From Actinoplanes subtropicus (GTDB lineage: Bacteria; Actinomycetota; Actinomycetes; Mycobacteriales; Micromonosporaceae), in assembly GCF_000721705.1 (NCBI RefSeq), contig NZ_JOJL01000058.1:1-38067 (forward strand): DNA of 38,067 nt, in the 5' to 3' direction. The position numbers and the translations under genes were made by a program. The notes beneath the pieces are model-generated. The model was not told the DNA's origin, did no database searches, and saw nothing but the letters and a program-made list of their open reading frames with translations. The stretch's first letter is position 1, and each line of letters opens with the position of its first letter. Below are positions 12,137-30,553 of this stretch, piece by piece.

Positions 12137-12195
12137 CACCCGACGGGGCCGCCGACCGCACCCGGCCCGATCAGCCGGCCGGTGGCCCCAATCCG

Positions 12196-12459
12196 GTCGC
12201 GGCACCCGGCAGGGCCGCAGCCACCGCGGTCGCGGCACCCGGCAGGGCCGCAGCCACCGCGGTCGCGGCACCCGGCAGGGCCGCAGCCACCGGGGTCGCG
12301 GCTCCCGAGAGGGCCGCGGCCAATGCGGTCGCGGCACCCGGCAGGGCCGCAGCCACCGGGGTCGCGGCACCCGGCAGGGCCGCAGCCACCGGGGTCGCGG
12401 CACCCGAGAGGGCCGCGGCCAATGCGGTCGCGGCACTCGGTAGGGCCGCGACACGCGAT
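12196..12459. repeat. 33-bp minisatellite, eight units
   Basis: Eight head-to-tail units of exactly 33 bp start at 12196, 12229, 12262, 12295, 12328, 12361, 12394 and 12427, each opening with GTCGCGGC. Two variants alternate: type A (contains CACCCGGCAGGGCCGCAG) at units 1-3, 5 and 6, and type B (contains CCGAGAGGGCCGCGGCCAAT) at units 4 and 7. Unit 8 is degenerate. The array lies in the 446-bp gap between the convergent trypsin and hypothetical genes. All reading frames are open through it because of its length and GC content, but no frame has a plausible start or family, so I treat it as noncoding. Confidence 0.9.
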
Positions 12460-12582
12460 CGCGACGCCGACCGCTTCCTCGCACAGTCGTCGGCGTCGCA
12501 CCCACGGCCTCGCAGCCTCCCGCTGCGGGGCCGTGGCGCGTCCACCACGCTTTCTCCGGCCCGCGCGCCCGAGGCCCTCGGG

Positions 12583-21081: not shown

Positions 21082-24000
21082 GGGTCTGGGCGAACCGGGT
21101 CGCGCCGTCCTCGAGATCGGGATGCTCCACGGCCAGGGCCATCGCCACGATCCGATCAAAACCCAAACCCACTCCGTCGGCGTACGCGGCATCAAAGGCC
21201 GCGTCGCCGAGGGAGGTGCGCAGAGCCAACTGCTGGTCGGCCCAGAAACGCCCGAACATGTCGGTACCCCGGGCGCCGCGGGCCGCCTCCGCCCCGCCGA
21301 ACAGGACGGCCGCGCTCGCCGGGTCGCCGCCCAGCGCACAGCGGACCGCGATCGCGGCGACCGCGTCGGCGGCCGCGCCCCGGAACCCGTGCCGCAGCCG
21401 CGACCGCAGGGCCACCACCAGGTGGTCATGGGCGGCGACCAGGTCACGACGGCGCAGCGCGACCATCCCCAGCAGCCAGTCGACGGTGCGCCGGCCGCGG
21501 TCCTCGGGGCGGCCGGCCTCCAGCTGACGGGCGCCGCCGAGCAGTTCGGCCGCCTCGAGGAGCGCGTCCCGCCGCCAGAGCAGCTCGGCCAGCGTCACCA
21601 CGGACGGCAGCCCGGCCTCGGCCACGCCGAACTGCTCGGCCCGGGCGATCATCTCGCGGCAGTGCTTCTCGGCCGCGTCGAACTGCTCCTCCGCCACCAG
21701 CGTCAGCCGGTACTTGGCCATGGCCCGAACCCGCAGGCCCTGGTCTTCGGCGACCCGCGCCATCCGCTCGGCCCGCTCGGCGAACCGGGCCCGCTCCTCG
21801 GGATCGTCGGCGAGCCGGGCGTGCACCAGATAGGCGGAGGCCAGGTCGGCGGGCGGCACGGAGGCGTCGTCGAGCCGGCGGTAGAGCCGGAACAGCAGGT
21901 CGCGTCCCTCGCGGGCGCCGCCGTGCTCCCGCCACCAGGGGTCGAGCGCACTGGCCAGCCGCAAGCCGGCCTCGACGCTTCCGTGCGTGGCGGCCCAGCG
22001 CAGCGCTGCCTGCCATTCCGGCACGTACGGGGCACGCTCGGTCAGCGAGACGGTGCGCGGCTGACCGTCGGTGTCCACGGTGGCGGCCGCGAGCGTGTGC
22101 AGCGACCAGGCCAGGTGCCGGTCCCGGGCGACGTGCTCGTCCCCGGCGGCGGCAAGTTGGCGGCACGCGTACGCCCGGACCTGCTCGGACATCCAATAAA
22201 GCGGCCCCGGCACCACCTCGATCAGCGACTTCTCGGCCAGCTCGGCGAGCGACCCGACCGCGTCCGGCCCGCACCACTCGACGGTCGGCAGGTCGACGGC
22301 GCCGGCGAAGACCGAAAGGCGGCGCAGGAGGGCGGCGGAGCGCAGGCTCAGCGTCCGGTAGGACCAGTCGAGACAGGCGGTCAGGCTGCGGTGGCGCTCC
22401 CCGGGATCCGCACCATCCGGGTCGGCACCGCTCAGGTCGGCACCGCTCAGCCCGGCACCGCTCAGCCCGGCACCGCTCAGCCCGGCGCTGCTCAAGCCGG
22501 CGCTGCTCAAGCCGGCGCCGGCCGGGGCGGCGCTGATCGGGTCGAGGGCAGCGATCGGGTCGTCGAGTCGTGCCTCCAATTGGGCGGCCGAGAACAGCCG
22601 CATCCGGGCGGCGGCGAGCTCGATGGCGAGCGGTGAACCCTCCAGCCGCGCGGCTACCCGAGCCAGGTCGCCCTTCTCCTCGACCGACGCCGCCCGTCCG
22701 CCGCGGGCCGCCTCGAAGCGCTCGCCGAGCAGGGTGAACGCGTCGGCCGGCGACAGCGGCGGGATCCGCCAGACCACCTCGCCGTGCACCCCGAGCGGCT
22801 CGCGCCCAGTGACCAGCACGTCAACGCCGGGGCAGGCGGCCAGCAGCCGCTGCACGAGACCGGCACAGGCGGCCGGCGCGGCGTCAGAGGTCTGCAGGAG
22901 CAGCAGCATCCGCCGGCCCGCGCACTCTTCCAAGACCGTCTCCAGCACCGGACGGCCCGGCTCGGCGCGCAGGCCAAGGGCCGCGGCCAGGGCGGGGGCC
23001 AGGCCGGTTGCCGCGCTGACCGCATCGACCGTCCAAATTCCTTGCGGGTACGCCGTGAGCACCTGCTCGCCGAACGCCAGTGACAAGCGCGTCTTACCCG
23101 CGCCACCGGGTCCCGCGATCGTGACGAGCCGGTGCCGGGTGAGCAGCTCGGACAGCTCGGCGAGTTCGGCCCGCCGGCCCACGAAGGAGGTGACCGGCGC
23201 GGGCAGGTTGTGCCGGGCCGCTCCCGGGGTGCGCGGACGCGGGAAGTCCCGGTCGAGGCCGGCCGCGACGACCTGGAAGAGCCGCTCGTCGTCGTCGAAG
23301 CCGCGCAGCCGGTGCGGCCCGAGGTCGAGCAGGTCGACACCGGACAGACACTCGGCAACCGGATCCACCACGGTCTCGGCGCGATTCGACCCGTTGGCCG
23401 CCAAGGAGCTGGGCGCTGTCTGGGCGCTGACCGCTGCCGGGCCGCTGGCCAGCGCCGCTCCACTGGCCGACGCCGAGCCACTGACCGACGCCACGCCACT
23501 GGCCAACGCCGAGGCACTGACCGACGCCACGCCACTGGCCAACGGCGGGCCGCTGACCGCCGCCGAGCCACTGACCAGCGCCGCTCCACTGGCCGAGGCC
23601 GAGCCACTGACCAGCGCCGGACCGCTGGCGAGGGACGGGCTGGTGGGTTTTGCTGGGGCGCTGGATGCCGGGGCGGGCCGCGCGGCCGGGCCGAACGGCA
23701 AGAGCTGCGGGGCGCCCGGGATCGACACTCCGAACGGGATGTCGGCGCCCGAGGTCAGGATGGCCAGCGCGGTGGCGCCCGAACAGAGGACCTGCCCACC
23801 GTGCGCGGCCGCCGCTACCCGGGCGGCGCGGTGCACCTCGATGCTCGCGTACTCCTCGCCGATCGGCTTCGCGAACCCGGTGTGCACCCCCATCCGCACC
23901 CTTGGCATAGCGTCACGACCCGGCCACTCGTGTGCGGACAGTCGCCGTTGTGCCTCTACGCAAGCGGCGAGAGCGGAGCCAGCTTCACGGAAGGCGACGA

Positions 24001-24190: not shown

Positions 24191-25223
24191 GGTGAACCTC
24201 CGCCTCCTTCTGGGAAGTCGTGACTCATGCTGCCGTATCGCAGCGTTACCGTGCATCGTAGAAACGGACGGTAACAATCCGCCCGTCACGACCGACCCCG
24301 GACGGAGGACACTCGTCCGAGAGTCATCGACTTCCCTATGCACTACGCGTGACGTAACGAAATGGATCGAGCCGGGACACGCCGCAGTCGGTCAGTTCCC
24401 GCCGACCGTTCGGGCGTACCCGCAAGAGTCACCCCACACGACATCTCTCCACGTCGCACGGTCACTGCGCTGCGTAATCGCGACCCCGCCCCGAAGATCG
24501 ATCGCCGGACCATATGCCCGATCGGCCGGAAAGAGCCACCCCTTCTGGACGTACGCACCCGCGCGGAACTTCAACACCCCCCGAACGAGACCGCATCACC
24601 CGCCCGCGTAAACCCCGCACGAACCTACGCGAGCCCCATTCCCGGCAACCACCCGATCCGACACGACCCCGCACCACCCAGCCAGCCCGACCCCGCGCAC
24701 CCGGCCCCAGGCACGCCACGGCCCGACCAGGCACAGGACGGCACGACCCGACCCAGCCCAGCCCGGCCCAGCACAGCCCGGCCCAGCACAGCCCGGCCCA
24801 GCACAGCCCAGCACAGCCCGGCCCAGCACAGCCCGGCCCAGCACAGCCCGGCCCAGCACAGCCCGGCCCAGCACAGCCCGGCCCAGCACAGCCCGGCCAG
24901 CACAGCCCGGCCCGCCCGGCGCAACGCAACGCGGCGACGGGGCACGGGCCGGCGCCACGCGGCCCGGCGAGGCGGCGCGACGCGGCAGGACGCGACGCGG
25001 CAGGACGCGACCCGGCCCGCCCGGCGCGACCCGGCCGGCCCGGCGCGACCCGGCGCGGCACGACGCGGCGGCGCGACTCGGCCCGGCGAGGCGGCGCGAC
25101 GCGGCCTGGTACGGCCCCGACGACGCGGCCCGACGCGGCAACGCGGCGACCCGACGCACAGGGGCCCAGCACGACGCGGCCCGGCACGCCTCGTCGGTCG
25201 ACTGCGCGCCCGCGGTTGGCGGG
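24191..25223. other. gene-free region between cyclase and FmdB genes
   Basis: No supported gene lies in these 1.03 kb. Bases 24191-24620 are of ordinary composition and should hold the cyclase promoter; no clear box was found. Bases 24650-24765 are rich in CCC-A/G words, 24766-24909 hold a 15-bp tandem repeat, and 24920-25200 are made of jumbled GCGACGCGG and CCCGGCGCGAC words with few T residues on the plus strand. ORFs on both strands are long but repetitive and carry no domain. Confidence 0.7.
24766..24909. repeat. 15-bp intergenic tandem repeat
   Basis: GCCCAGCACAGCCCG is repeated from 24766, 24781, 24796, then after a 10-bp partial unit (24811-24820) from 24821, 24836, 24851, 24866, 24881, with a 14-bp last unit at 24896. 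Most units are identical. The plus strand has almost no T, giving strong strand asymmetry. Confidence 0.9.
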
Positions 25224-25547: not shown

Positions 25548-27008
25548 ATGGTCGGGGCCGTGGCGAACGGGCGGAAGACACCGATGGGGCAACCTGAGCT
25601 GCGCGCGTCGGCGCCGCACCGGGGCGGGCCGCTCGGCAGTTCCGGCGCGGCCCCCGAGGCGGCGCCGGCAACCACGCAGGCCACCAAGTCAGATATAGCC
25701 GAAAAGTCCGAGGCCAAGACGGACGCTGTGCCGGCGGCAAAGGCAACGGACGAAGGCAAGACCGAGGTGACCCCGGCGGTCGAGGGCAAGAGCGAGGCGA
25801 CCCCGGCGGCCGAGGACAAGAGCGAGGCCAAACCCGAGGTGACGCCTCCGAGCGAGGCCGCAGGCGAAGGCAAGACCGAGGTAGTGCCCCCGGACGCGGC
25901 CAAGAACGACCGCAAACCCGACGTGGCGCCTCCGAACGGGACCAAGGACGACGGCAAGACCGACGCGGTGCCTCTGGACGCGGCCAAGGACGACGGCAAG
26001 ACCGAGGCGGCAGCCAAGGGGGACGGCGCGGACAAGCCCCCGACGACCCCCACGGCCACCCCTACGAGCGACTCCACGAGCGACCCCAAGGCGACTCCCC
26101 CAGCCCCCCGACGCGCGCATCCCGTGCAGGCCGTCGCCCGGGCCGGCCGCAGCACCTCCGCCTGGGCCAAGCGCCCCAGTGGACGCCTCGTGCTACCCGG
26201 GGTCATCGTCCTGCTGCTGCTCGGGGCGGCCGGCACTGCCGGTGCTTACCTCGTACCGCAAGCATTGGATGCCACACCCGCGCCCAGCGCGACCCCCGCA
26301 TTCGGCGCCGGAGCGACGGCGGCCTCGGCGCCGCCGGTCGGCGCGGCCGCCGGGCTGCCCACCGGCTCCGCTCCGATCGGCCCGTCCGGCGCGCCCGCCG
26401 TCACCACCCCGGCCGGGCAGGGGCAGAACGGCCAGCGCCCGGCCGATGCCCTGGAAGGCTGGGCCCAGCAGATCGGCACCAAGGTCAGCATTCCGGTGGT
26501 GGCGCTGGAGGCGTACGGCTATGCCGCGCTCGTGCTGGAGAAGACCACGCCGTCCTGCCATCTGAGCTGGACCACGATCGCCGCCCTCGGCAAGGTGGAA
26601 TCCGACCATGGCAGCGCGAACGGCGCCGTGCTCGGCGCCGACGGTGAGGTGCAGCCTCCCATCTATGGCCTGCCGCTGGACGGCAAGGGCGGTCGGCAGC
26701 TGGTCCGGGACACCGATCAGGGCACGATCGACGGTGACACCACGTACGACCGGGCCGTCGGTCCACTGCAGTTCGTCCCGCAGACCTGGAACAGCTACAA
26801 GATGGATGCCGACAACAACGGCGTCGCCGACCCGAACGACATCTACGATGCGTCACTCACCGCGGCCTCCTATTTGTGCCAGGGCGGGCGTGACCTGTCC
26901 AAGGGGGCGTCCTGGTGGGACGCGATTCTCTCGTACAACGCCGTCCAGCCGTACGCGCAAAAGGTCTTCGAGGCCGCTAACGACTACGGCCAGCGCAGCC
27001 AGGGATGA
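25548..27008 (+). CDS. membrane-anchored lytic transglycosylase with long charged N-terminal tail
   Basis: A protein of about 486 residues. Residues 1-205 are an intracellular, disordered Lys/Glu/Asp/Pro/Ala-rich tail with imperfect repeats such as EGKTEVTPAVEGKSEATPAA and KDDGKTDAVPLDAAKDDGKT. One membrane helix follows at about 213-237 (LVLPGVIVLLLLGAAGTAGA), then an Ala/Pro/Gly linker and the catalytic domain from about 305. The catalytic Glu is in AALGKVESDHGSANG (about residue 350), and RAVGPLQFVPQTWNSYKMDA and ILSYNAVQPYAQKVF are family blocks. It should cleave peptidoglycan outside the membrane. The start is uncertain: ATG 25548, GTG 25560 (VANGRKTP) and ATG 25584 (MGQPEL, after GGCGGAAG) are all possible. 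Confidence 0.86.
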   Translation: MVGAVANGRKTPMGQPELRASAPHRGGPLGSSGAAPEAAPATTQATKSDIAEKSEAKTDAVPAAKATDEGKTEVTPAVEGKSEATPAAEDKSEAKPEVTPPSEAAGEGKTEVVPPDAAKNDRKPDVAPPNGTKDDGKTDAVPLDAAKDDGKTEAAAKGDGADKPPTTPTATPTSDSTSDPKATPPAPRRAHPVQAVARAGRSTSAWAKRPSGRLVLPGVIVLLLLGAAGTAGAYLVPQALDATPAPSATPAFGAGATAASAPPVGAAAGLPTGSAPIGPSGAPAVTTPAGQGQNGQRPADALEGWAQQIGTKVSIPVVALEAYGYAALVLEKTTPSCHLSWTTIAALGKVESDHGSANGAVLGADGEVQPPIYGLPLDGKGGRQLVRDTDQGTIDGDTTYDRAVGPLQFVPQTWNSYKMDADNNGVADPNDIYDASLTAASYLCQGGRDLSKGASWWDAILSYNAVQPYAQKVFEAANDYGQRSQG

Positions 27009-28116: not shown

Positions 28117-28173
28117 GCCTCCGCCGGCACCGGGCTTTCTCAGAAATAGCCCGGCACCTGCGGCGGCGGAGGC
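28117..28173. terminator. bidirectional hairpin at the GNAT/XRE convergent junction
   Basis: GCCTCCGCCG (28117-28126) pairs with 28164-28173, and inside it CCGGGCT (28130-28136) pairs with AGCCCGG (28148-28154) around an 11-base loop. The structure starts two bases after the GNAT stop and its far arm lies in the last codons of the XRE gene (Pro-rich PPPPQVPGYF). It lacks a strong T tract, so termination is likely but not certain. Confidence 0.5.
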
Positions 28174-28631
28174 TGATCACGGTATTTCTTGACCCGGACC
28201 TCCCACTGGCTACGCCGGCGCTGTATCTCTCGCGTGCGCCGATCTCGGTGGAAGGTCTCTGGCGGACGGGCGAGCCCATATTGATCGCCCCACCATTCCC
28301 CGGGCTCCGGATCCAAGATCGTGTCGAGATGACTCGGATAGCGTCGGTCGGCGCCGTCGCGGGCATCCTCCCGGTCGCGCATCGGCAGAATTACCCGCCC
28401 GTCATCGTTGACGACCGCCATGCCGAGACCAGCCACGCCCAAGATCCGTTCGAAGGCGGGCAAGCTCGGCGTCAGAGTGCCCTTCTCGATGCGACTGATC
28501 GTGGAGCGGGAGAGCCGAGCCGCCACCGCCAGCTCACGTTGGCTGATACGCGCGATGCTGCGCACGCGGCGAACCAGGCCCGGCACGGGAAGCCCGAACG
28601 ACGGCTCGTCAGCATTTGCTGGGATTGGCAT
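28140..28631 (-). CDS. XRE-family helix-turn-helix regulator
   Basis: A 163-residue protein. Residues 15-72 form a Cro/C1-type HTH: LVRRVRSIARISQRELAVAA RLSRSTISRIEKGTLTPSLP (two adjoining blocks), with ISRIEKG as recognition-helix end. The rest is polar: PMRDREDARDGADRRYPSHL, then DPEPGEWWGDQYGLARPPET and a basic stretch (RDRRTREIQRRRSQWEVRVK) with a Pro-rich tail. No ligand or protease domain is seen. I take the ATG at 28631; the frame is open upstream through a repeat array but that part is clearly not coding. The 22-core array begins 210 bp upstream and one inverted core lies 114 bp upstream. Confidence 0.85.
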   Translation of the reverse strand: MPIPANADEPSFGLPVPGLVRRVRSIARISQRELAVAARLSRSTISRIEKGTLTPSLPAFERILGVAGLGMAVVNDDGRVILPMRDREDARDGADRRYPSHLDTILDPEPGEWWGDQYGLARPPETFHRDRRTREIQRRRSQWEVRVKKYRDQPPPPQVPGYF

Positions 28632-28744
28632 GCGTCCGACTATGGCAGCTGGCGTCGATTCCCGGAGAGCCCCTGTGGACAACTCCGAGTTCGCCCCAAC
28701 TCCGCACCAAATCCGCAGGCCAGGTGCTGCTTCTCCGCGCCTTT

Positions 28745-28755
28745 GCTCTGCGCAC
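28745..28755 (-). repeat. inverted copy of the array core
   Basis: GCTCTGCGCAC is the exact reverse complement of the array core GTGCGCAGAGC, placed 87 bp before the first direct copy and 114 bp from the XRE start codon. Degenerate cores (TACGCACAGC, TACGCACCGC) follow at about 28760-28790. Confidence 0.75.
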
Positions 28756-28841
28756 CAATACGCACAGCACTGCGCACTGATACGCACCGCCCGAGCGGAC
28801 CACCCCGACGGGCGTCCTTGCGCGCAAGCGGGTGCCTCCTG

Positions 28842-29330
28842 GTACGCAGAGCGGGCGCGCCCACGTGCGCAGAGCAGGCGCGCCCACGTGCGCAGAGCAG
28901 GCGCGCCCACGTGCGCAGAGCAGGCGCGCCCACGTGCGCAGAGCAGGCGCGCCCACGTGCGCAGAGCCGGGGCGCGCCCACGTGCGCAGAGCCGGGGGCG
29001 TCTCGGTGCGGAGAGCAGTGCGTCTTTGTGCGCAGAGCCGGGGGCCCAAGTGCGCAGAGCCGGGGGCCCAAGTGCGCAGAGCGGGCGTGCTCACGTGCGC
29101 AGAGCCGGGGGGACTCGGTGCGCAGAGCAGTGCGTCTTTGTGCGCAGAGCGGGGGCCCAAGTGCGCAGAGCGGGCGTGCCCACGTGCGCAGAGCCGGGGG
29201 GACTCGGTGCGCAGAGCAGTGCGTCTTTGTGCGCAGAGCCGGGGGCCCAAGTGCGCAGAGCGGGCGTGCCCACGTGCGCAGAGCCGGGGGCGTCTCGGTG
29301 CGCAGAGCAGTGCGTCTTGGTGCGCAGAGC
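28842..29330 (+). repeat. nested array of 22 GTGCGCAGAGC cores at 21-25 bp spacing
   Basis: Cores begin at 28842 (GTACGCAGAGC), 28865, 28888, 28911, 28934, 28957, 28982, 29006 (one mismatch), 29028, 29050, 29072, 29095, 29118, 29140, 29161, 29184, 29207, 29229, 29251, 29274, 29298 and 29320. Spacers fall in a few classes: AGGCGCGCCCAC, CGGGGGCCCAA, GGGCGTGCCCAC, CGGGGGGACTCG or CGGGGGCGTCTCG, and AGTGCGTCTTT. From 29095 four unit types recur in the same order every 89-90 bp. Unit lengths vary by 1-2 bp without regard to frame, so it is not coding. Spacing of about two helical turns places the cores roughly on one face of the DNA. Confidence 0.92.
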
Positions 29331-29569: not shown

Positions 29570-30553
29570 TCAGAAGCGGAGGCGCTGGGCCACCTCGGTG
29601 GCCCAGTAGGTGAGGATGATCTGGGCGCCCGCCCGCTTGATCGAGGTGAGCGTCTCCATGATGATGCGGTCGCGGTCGATCCAGCCGTTCGCGGCGGCCG
29701 CCTCGACCATCGCGTACTCGCCGGAGACCTGGTAGGCGGCGACCGGGACGGTCACCCGGTCGCGGATCGCCGCGATCACGTCGAGGTAGGCCAGCGCGGG
29801 CTTGACCATCACGATGTCGGCGCCCTCGGCCACGTCCAGGTCGACCTCGCGCAGCGCCTCGCGCAGGTTCGGCGGGTCCTGCTGGTACTGGCGGCGGTCA
29901 CCCTGCAAGGTGGACTCGACCGCCTCGCGGAACGGGCCGTAGAACGCACCCGCGTACTTCGCCGAGTAGGCCAGGATCGACGTGTCCTGGAAGCCCTTTT
30001 TGTCCAGGGCGCGCCGGATCACGCCGATCTGGCCGTCCATCATGCCGGACGGGCCGACCATGTGCGCTCCGGCCTGCGCCTGGCACACCGCCATCTCGGC
30101 GTAGACCTCGAGCGTCGCGTCGTTGTCGACCGAGCCGTCCTTGGCCAGCACCCCGCAGTGCCCGTGCGAGGTGAACTCGTCCAGGCACAGGTCGCTCATC
30201 ACGACCGTGTCGTTGCCCACCTCGGCGACCAGGTCGCGGATGCCGACGTTGAGGATGCCGTCCGGGTCGAGGCCGGCCGAACCGGTCTCGTCCTTGTTCT
30301 CGTTCTCCGGTACGCCGAACAGCATCAGGCCGCCGACGCCCGCGCTGACCGCCTCGTGCGCCGCCTTGCGCAGCGACTCCCGCGAGTGCTGGACGACGCC
30401 GGGCAGCGAGCTGATCGGCCGGGCCTCGGTCAGCCCCTCCTTCAGGAAGAGGGGCAGGATCAGCTCGGACGGGGCGAGGCGAGTCTCCTCCACCAGGCGG
30501 CGGAGGGCCGGCGTGCGCCGCAGGCGGCGCGGGCGCACATCGGGGAACGACAT
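29570..30553 (-). CDS. hemB: porphobilinogen synthase (delta-aminolevulinate dehydratase)
   Basis: A 327-residue enzyme that condenses two 5-aminolevulinate molecules to porphobilinogen. The two active-site Lys are in [15 protein letters not shown] and [13 protein letters not shown] (Schiff base). The metal loop reads [17 protein letters not shown]: two Cys with Asp in place of the middle Cys of the all-Cys zinc site, an intermediate type. The allosteric Mg region ([17 protein letters not shown]) is also present. It is the last gene of the rex-hemACDB series, 13 bases after the hemD stop. Confidence 0.96.

Follow-up and report, generated by a model that had tools for sequence, protein, structure and literature searches.

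A 22-unit DNA array in Actinoplanes subtropicus as the probable overgrown arm of a palindrome that accompanies an XRE-family gene

The array and its neighbourhood

The window analysed, a stretch of 38,067 nucleotides from Actinoplanes subtropicus, carries an array of short repeats in the gap between a gene of the XRE family and hemB (Table 1), the neighbourhood being made up, according to Pfam, of hem genes, an acetyltransferase and the XRE gene itself. The gap had been described as gene-free, and we likewise recognised no convincing gene from the start of XRE (28631) to the stop of hemB (29570), one gene finder used here missing XRE as well; nor does the window match any Rfam family at gathering scores.

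Table 1. Positions of the genes and sequence features around the array (window coordinates).
Feature	Position	Strand	Basis
XRE-family gene, 163 aa, with an HTH at about residues 16-66 and a highly conserved C-terminal tail	28140..28631	-	Pfam HTH_31, HTH_3
DnaA-box-like TTGTCCACA, between XRE and the palindrome	28674..28682	-	
Left (XRE-side) arm: tip TTTGCTCTGCGCAC and second inverted unit with one mismatch	28742..28777	.	
Palindrome interior	28778..28841	.	
Right (hemB-side) arm, amplified to 22 core units, with closing tip GTGCGCAGAGCAAA	28842..29333	+	
Four-core higher-order unit, 89-91 bp	29050..29319	+	TRF and spacer comparison
hemB (delta-aminolevulinic acid dehydratase)	29570..30553	-	Pfam ALAD

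The XRE protein has an HTH domain, as recognised by Pfam, by its AlphaFold2 model and by fold comparison. In this model the HTH alone is confident, the C-terminal tail being of low confidence, and a Foldseek search with it returned HTH matches only, none at E 0.001 or better, the fold of the tail going unrecognised. In an alignment of 47 sequences the tail is conserved more strongly than the HTH. The GC content at third positions of the gene is 0.74, lower than in most genes of the window.

The 9-mer TTGTCCACA upstream of XRE is DnaA-box-like. With at most one mismatch it is present in 32 of 40 XRE loci (between 260 bp upstream and 20 bp inside the gene), 50 of the 52 matches having the same orientation, against 0.018 per 280 bp in the controls; the exact 9-mer is found in 21 of the 40 loci (250 bp) and at 3 of 280 control genes. 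These sites, located between the palindrome and XRE, are often paired.

The analysis of the array itself bears out what had been described for it. From 28842 to 29330 the plus strand holds 22 copies of the 11-bp core at spacings of 21-25 bp, 20 of them exact and two (at 28842 and 29006) with one mismatch. At this tolerance the window contains 25 matches, comprising the 22 of the array, two inverted copies and one inside a predicted gene (21216), far above the mean of 2.67 and the maximum of 8 obtained in 100 shuffles. The single exact inverted core reported between the array and XRE lies at 28745-28755, and a second one with one mismatch, unlisted earlier, at 28767-28777. The 21 spacers correspond to 11 different strings, in the order ABBBBCDEFFGHEIJHEFJDK, which fall into about five or six classes, in agreement with the non-unique spacers of about five classes originally noted; a CRISPR is rejected, as its spacers would not repeat in this way. 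The mean pairwise difference amounts to 0.017 for the core and 0.48 for the spacers, and this contrast is not an artefact of the core search, since no core is missing in the spacing from the first to the last. Tandem Repeats Finder (TRF) assigns a period of 89 and 5.1 copies to 28865-29330, and periods of 23, 46 and 89 across the array, which thus has the head-to-tail units of 10-100 bp of a minisatellite. From 29050 onward equivalent cores return each 89-91 bp, matching the four-core unit of 89-90 bp that had been proposed for the later part.

The array is bounded by tips that belong to a single palindromic element, which starts with TTTGCTCTGCGCAC (28742) and ends with GTGCGCAGAGCAAA (29333), its left arm having 2 units and its right arm 22. 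It is one such element whose right arm has overgrown.

A palindrome family in the genome and the genus

The palindromes have the layout TTTGCTCTG-block...block'-CAGAGCAAA, with inverted ends (terminal inverted repeats), and usually measure 66-76 bp. A search for the exact core in the genome of A. subtropicus (G000, 11.26 Mb in 215 contigs) gave 86 matches, whereas the reversed pattern gave 6. Many of the 86 form inverted pairs 57 bp apart and make up the two arms of a palindrome of 76 bp, CTTTGCTCTGCGCAC...GTGCGCAGAGCAAAG. A covariance model, applied to 150 of 976 first-look candidates, gave 14 strong and 4 weak places in this genome, the window being among the weak ones. Tandem arrays are present at other loci, with eight left and two right units at L024, nine units of 24 bp at L033 and four of 18 bp at L032, and others at L022, L025, L026 and L031; the core is common to all arrays, the spacers differing to varying degrees.

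A stringent tip pattern detects the family in 3 of 67 genomes of the genus, with 21 half-sites in A. subtropicus, 44 in G005 and 26 in G080 and none in the control, a fourth genome (G004) carrying variants. In the order, 18 of 397 genomes are positive, from 3 of 86 genera. A longer arm pattern yields 13 stretches in named genomes, 12 of Pseudonocardia and one of Paractinoplanes tereljensis, and no match in viral contigs. The block that follows the tip is genome-specific, being CGCAC in A. subtropicus and CTTAC, CACCC, CATCC or CAGCC elsewhere. At four loci of G005 (L149, L153, L175, L182) three to five single arms stand in tandem, the opposite arm being absent, with units partly of ~32 bp, and at two Pseudonocardia loci (L071, L070) 10-bp units GTGCGTATCG are in tandem inside an arm, a pattern expected of slippage.

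Five palindromes of A. subtropicus (L164, L165, L167, L168, L169) are contained in a repeat of ~190 bp, 90-98% alike, at unrelated sites. At four contig ends of the same genome (L034, L037, L039 and L166; contigs C31, C65, C70 and C10), different palindromes lead into an identical sequence of ~89 bp, which starts at the same base after CAGAGCAAAG and reaches the contig end. Since four different palindromes continue from the same base into one identical sequence, this suggests an insertion sequence, probably target-specific, at the palindrome edge.

The palindrome accompanies XRE

We have searched 150 genomes of the Micromonosporaceae for relatives of the XRE protein and found them at 41 places in 39 genomes (E 1e-25); in the genus, close relatives (E 1e-15 or better) are present in 2 of 67 genomes. 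Tips are located upstream of 33 of these 41 genes and on both sides of three more (L208, L210, L216), as though the gene sat within the palindrome; none has tips downstream only, three with full flanks have no tip (L218, L219, L365) and two sit at the edge of a contig (L222, L367). Among the 33 upstream cases, 30 are exact tip pairs ending 46-532 bp before the projected start, the others being two tip pairs at 1043 and 1495 bp and one single tip. No tip was found in 400 kb of control DNA, consisting of twenty 20-kb stretches from blindly chosen places in 10 XRE-bearing genomes. It had been stated that absence of the array from strains that keep XRE would speak against a connection: the long array is indeed seen in the window only, but the parent palindrome is kept at most XRE genes, the other XRE loci having a palindrome instead of a long array.

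The search of the genome and its relatives that the original prediction had proposed shows that core and XRE go together. A gapped palindrome pattern is positive in 43 of the 150 family genomes, with 1-21 palindromes per genome, the reversed control giving 0 in all; 35 genomes have both palindrome and XRE, 4 XRE only, 8 the palindrome only and 103 neither (Fisher p 5e-22, a figure that ignores kinship). The XRE-only genomes are G083, G109 and G119, where tips are present at XRE but more widely spaced, and G131. The palindrome-only genomes are G087, G117, G123, G132, G145, G151, G154 and G156, and in the genus G080 and G004 have palindromes without XRE too. One of them, G145, has nine palindromes, a close XRE relative being absent at the threshold used. 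Two genomes (G104, G099) lack the XRE-side copy, yet have 15 and 4 palindromes elsewhere, and in two others (G204, G210) the XRE-side copy is the sole palindrome detected by the pattern. No XRE relative was found in 23 stretches, as opposed to whole genomes, from Pseudonocardia (12), Paractinoplanes tereljensis (1), G425 (2) and G080 (8). The core is therefore scattered over genomes, as had been foreseen for an unrelated sequence, but not without a link to a regulator, as the scattered copies track the presence of XRE. Linkage, co-occurrence and placement, as far as comparison of sequences goes, lend good support to XRE as the first candidate binder.

The neighbourhood of hemB and XRE is old, the two being close together at 24 of the 41 loci. 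In G005 hemB is on a different contig from XRE and has no tip, XRE keeping its palindrome, and the hemB loci of 14 genus relatives (L091-L104, including that of G005) are without exact tip or core, so that a tie of the palindrome to hemB is rejected. Nor does hemB adjoin XRE in the stretches examined from G152 (L336) and G091 (L354), and at L203, L206 and L217 hemB is 3' of XRE and the palindrome 5' of it. The palindrome follows XRE, not hemB, and stays 5' of XRE in different surroundings.

Arm covariation and correspondence between blocks

The arms of the XRE-side palindromes change in a concerted manner. In 17 palindromes, hand-picked among 36 XRE-side loci for a length of 66-80 bp, 16 of 29 arm pairs have changed on both sides, with a covariation of 0.322, whereas shuffling gave 0.135 and sliding no more than 0.099; 9 of the 12 invariant arm pairs are fixed by the way the copies were found.

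The XRE-side block is also the commonest dispersed block in 16 of 20 genomes, these being 20 of the 35 with an XRE-side block and 13 of them having one dispersed locus each. On permuting the XRE blocks within genera, the observed match score was reached in 191 of 10000 trials. Ten loci were left out of this comparison, five being the XRE-side copy itself (L280, L289, L296, L299, L300) and five coming from genomes whose XRE-side block could not be used or was missing (L282, L285, L287, L290, L293).

Across loci the HTH varies along with the block. The 11 columns of highest mutual information with the block include residues 37, 39, 40 and 41, and also 81, 137 and 76. In partial Mantel tests on 35 of 36 loci (L363 was dropped, its helix being missing), the recognition helix (residues 38-46) is not significantly related to the block (p 0.21), unlike helix 1 (p 0.0005) and tail residues 101-130 (p 0.0015). 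Because columns outside the helix score too and the test for the recognition helix is not significant, we do not claim a co-evolution of helix and block.

Genomic placing of the dispersed copies

Being mostly intergenic, the elements are dispersed extragenic palindromes. For five genomes (G091, G133, G152, G167, G187) we have analysed the gene context at 58 loci, after removal of five XRE-side loci, and found 26 palindromes in convergent, 19 in tandem and 3 in divergent position; nine rows fell inside a predicted gene (four from one locus) and one was unplaced. In comparison with control intergenic regions of other genomes (38 convergent, 95 tandem, 38 divergent), convergent positions are enriched (p 5e-5) and divergent ones scarce (p 0.011). 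In G000, G005 and G080, 66 clusters are distributed as 18 convergent, 25 tandem, 7 divergent, 9 inside genes and 7 unplaced. All these counts are approximate, because the home-made gene finder misses genes such as XRE.

The Y1 transposase PF01797 is absent from the four carriers of the genus (G000, G004, G005, G080) and present in 21 of its 67 genomes, so that a RAYT driver is unsupported. No empty site was found for 137 elements within the loci examined, no target duplication or autonomous relative of the palindrome was found, and inspection by eye revealed no transposase between widely spaced tips.

Proposed explanation and alternatives

The finding that the same small DNA-binding protein gene is fronted by the palindrome in many relatives, whose genomes also have copies at other places, suggests, as judged from sequence comparison, a protein with dedicated DNA sites. 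We consider it fairly probable that the array is the overgrown arm of XRE's own palindrome, and that the XRE protein is the most likely binder of the arm, where it would contact the tip and the adjoining 5-bp block (in A. subtropicus within GTGCGCAGAGC). Binding upstream of its own gene would probably result in autoregulation, and the protein may also bind the palindrome copies dispersed elsewhere, the site having perhaps been first at its own gene and spread afterwards. Given the excess of dispersed copies between convergent genes and their scarcity between divergent ones, the role of the protein there may be to coat, insulate or organise DNA, and not to control promoters.

This arrangement resembles that of XRE autoregulators such as HipB, HigA and the C-proteins of restriction-modification systems, which also combine an HTH fold with a symmetric site upstream of their own gene. 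Unlike these, the present protein has a conserved tail whose fold was not recognised, neither a toxin nor a restriction partner was identified, and some genomes contain dozens of dispersed copies. Several observations weigh against XRE binding: the distance between XRE and palindrome (46-1495 bp) is unusually variable for one operator, the dispersed copies keep away from promoter regions, the palindrome occurs without XRE in 8 of 150 genomes and three fully flanked XRE genes are tipless. Also, the species are related, the within-genus permutation reached the observed match score in 191 of 10000 trials, and the Mantel test for the recognition helix gave p 0.21.

The main rival is a selfish palindrome family of the REP or MITE kind merely inherited at XRE, in which case the array would be a neutral, hairpin-driven minisatellite and the position at XRE an old insertion without binding; we regard this as possible, if somewhat unlikely. 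Indeed, a selfish element would account for the patchy spread of the stringent tip pattern, for the copies inside the ~190-bp repeat and those continuing into one identical sequence, for the multiplication of arms at several loci and for the age of the hemB-XRE neighbourhood. Convergent and tandem intergenic placing is likewise reported for REPs (PMC3733652), and, like REP/REPIN elements with their RAYT (TnpA-REP), the palindromes are short and dispersed, have a copy beside the partner gene and were apparently hit by an insertion sequence. However, the partner is here an XRE HTH protein, with no Y1 transposase in four carriers, copies per genome are few, and the ends are TTTGCTCTG and CAGAGCAAA instead of the GTAG or CGTC tag reported at the stem foot of REPs (PMC3733652). 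MITEs share with the palindromes the inverted ends, the variable interior and, in most copies, the lack of coding capacity, but not the single arms in tandem, and they differ further in that neither autonomous relative nor target duplication nor empty site was found here. A selfish element merely inherited at XRE does not explain why dispersed copies track XRE across genomes, why the 5' position at XRE holds in other surroundings, or why cores are retained while spacers drift.

An extension of XRE binding, which we consider doubtful, is a dedicated system of chromosome marking in the Micromonosporaceae. The XRE protein would bind family-specific palindromes, both beside its own gene and at further chromosomal sites, up to some tens in number, co-evolving with their second block, and in some strains the sites would multiply into arrays; as the gene is under DnaA-box-like sites, the system would perhaps be tied to replication.

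An improbable alternative is that the palindrome acts mainly as an RNA hairpin, either a two-way transcription terminator or an mRNA end, XRE being a bystander. One canonical copy does form a very stable hairpin (-59.8 kcal/mol, z -12.2), and arm covariation and the enrichment between convergent genes would be in agreement. However, such a hairpin predicts neither the co-occurrence with XRE nor the matching blocks, the stem is followed by no T run (on both strands the last letters of the tip are AAA), and single arms without a partner arm are kept in the array.

The iteron-like platform for replication or copy control that had originally been suggested is very improbable and was not borne out, in spite of direct repeats about two helical turns apart and DnaA-box-like sites near XRE, as the array has a chromosomal position by the hem gene cluster, its neighbours (hem genes, acetyltransferase, XRE) include no replication initiator gene, none of the genes examined could be recognised as a replication gene, 72,556 plasmid records contain no XRE relative, and the unit is a dispersed palindrome, which at other XRE loci stands in place of a long array.

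XRE and palindrome constitute a candidate pair of protein and site that is open to direct testing. Dispersed bacterial palindromes are mostly credited to a transposase partner, or are partnerless, whereas this family tracks a small DNA-binding protein across many genera, with matched arms that differ by lineage; no description of the element is among the literature matches listed. The parent palindrome would also explain the origin of an array that appears to be a neutral minisatellite. In this strain the arm probably grew in tandem by hairpin slippage and then by unequal exchange of four-unit blocks, and retention of the core while the spacers drifted would provide more sites beside XRE. The neutral minisatellite allowed for in the original prediction stands in part: neutral slippage may explain the growth in length, and tandem units with higher-order repeats are common to both, but here the 11-bp core is conserved whereas the spacers vary, and separate arrays have it in common, unlike in neutral minisatellites. 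The window has further tandem repeats at 12194-12463, 22423-22520, 23427-23627, 24747-25115 and 25747-26011, several of which have a period that is a multiple of three, as coding repeats show.
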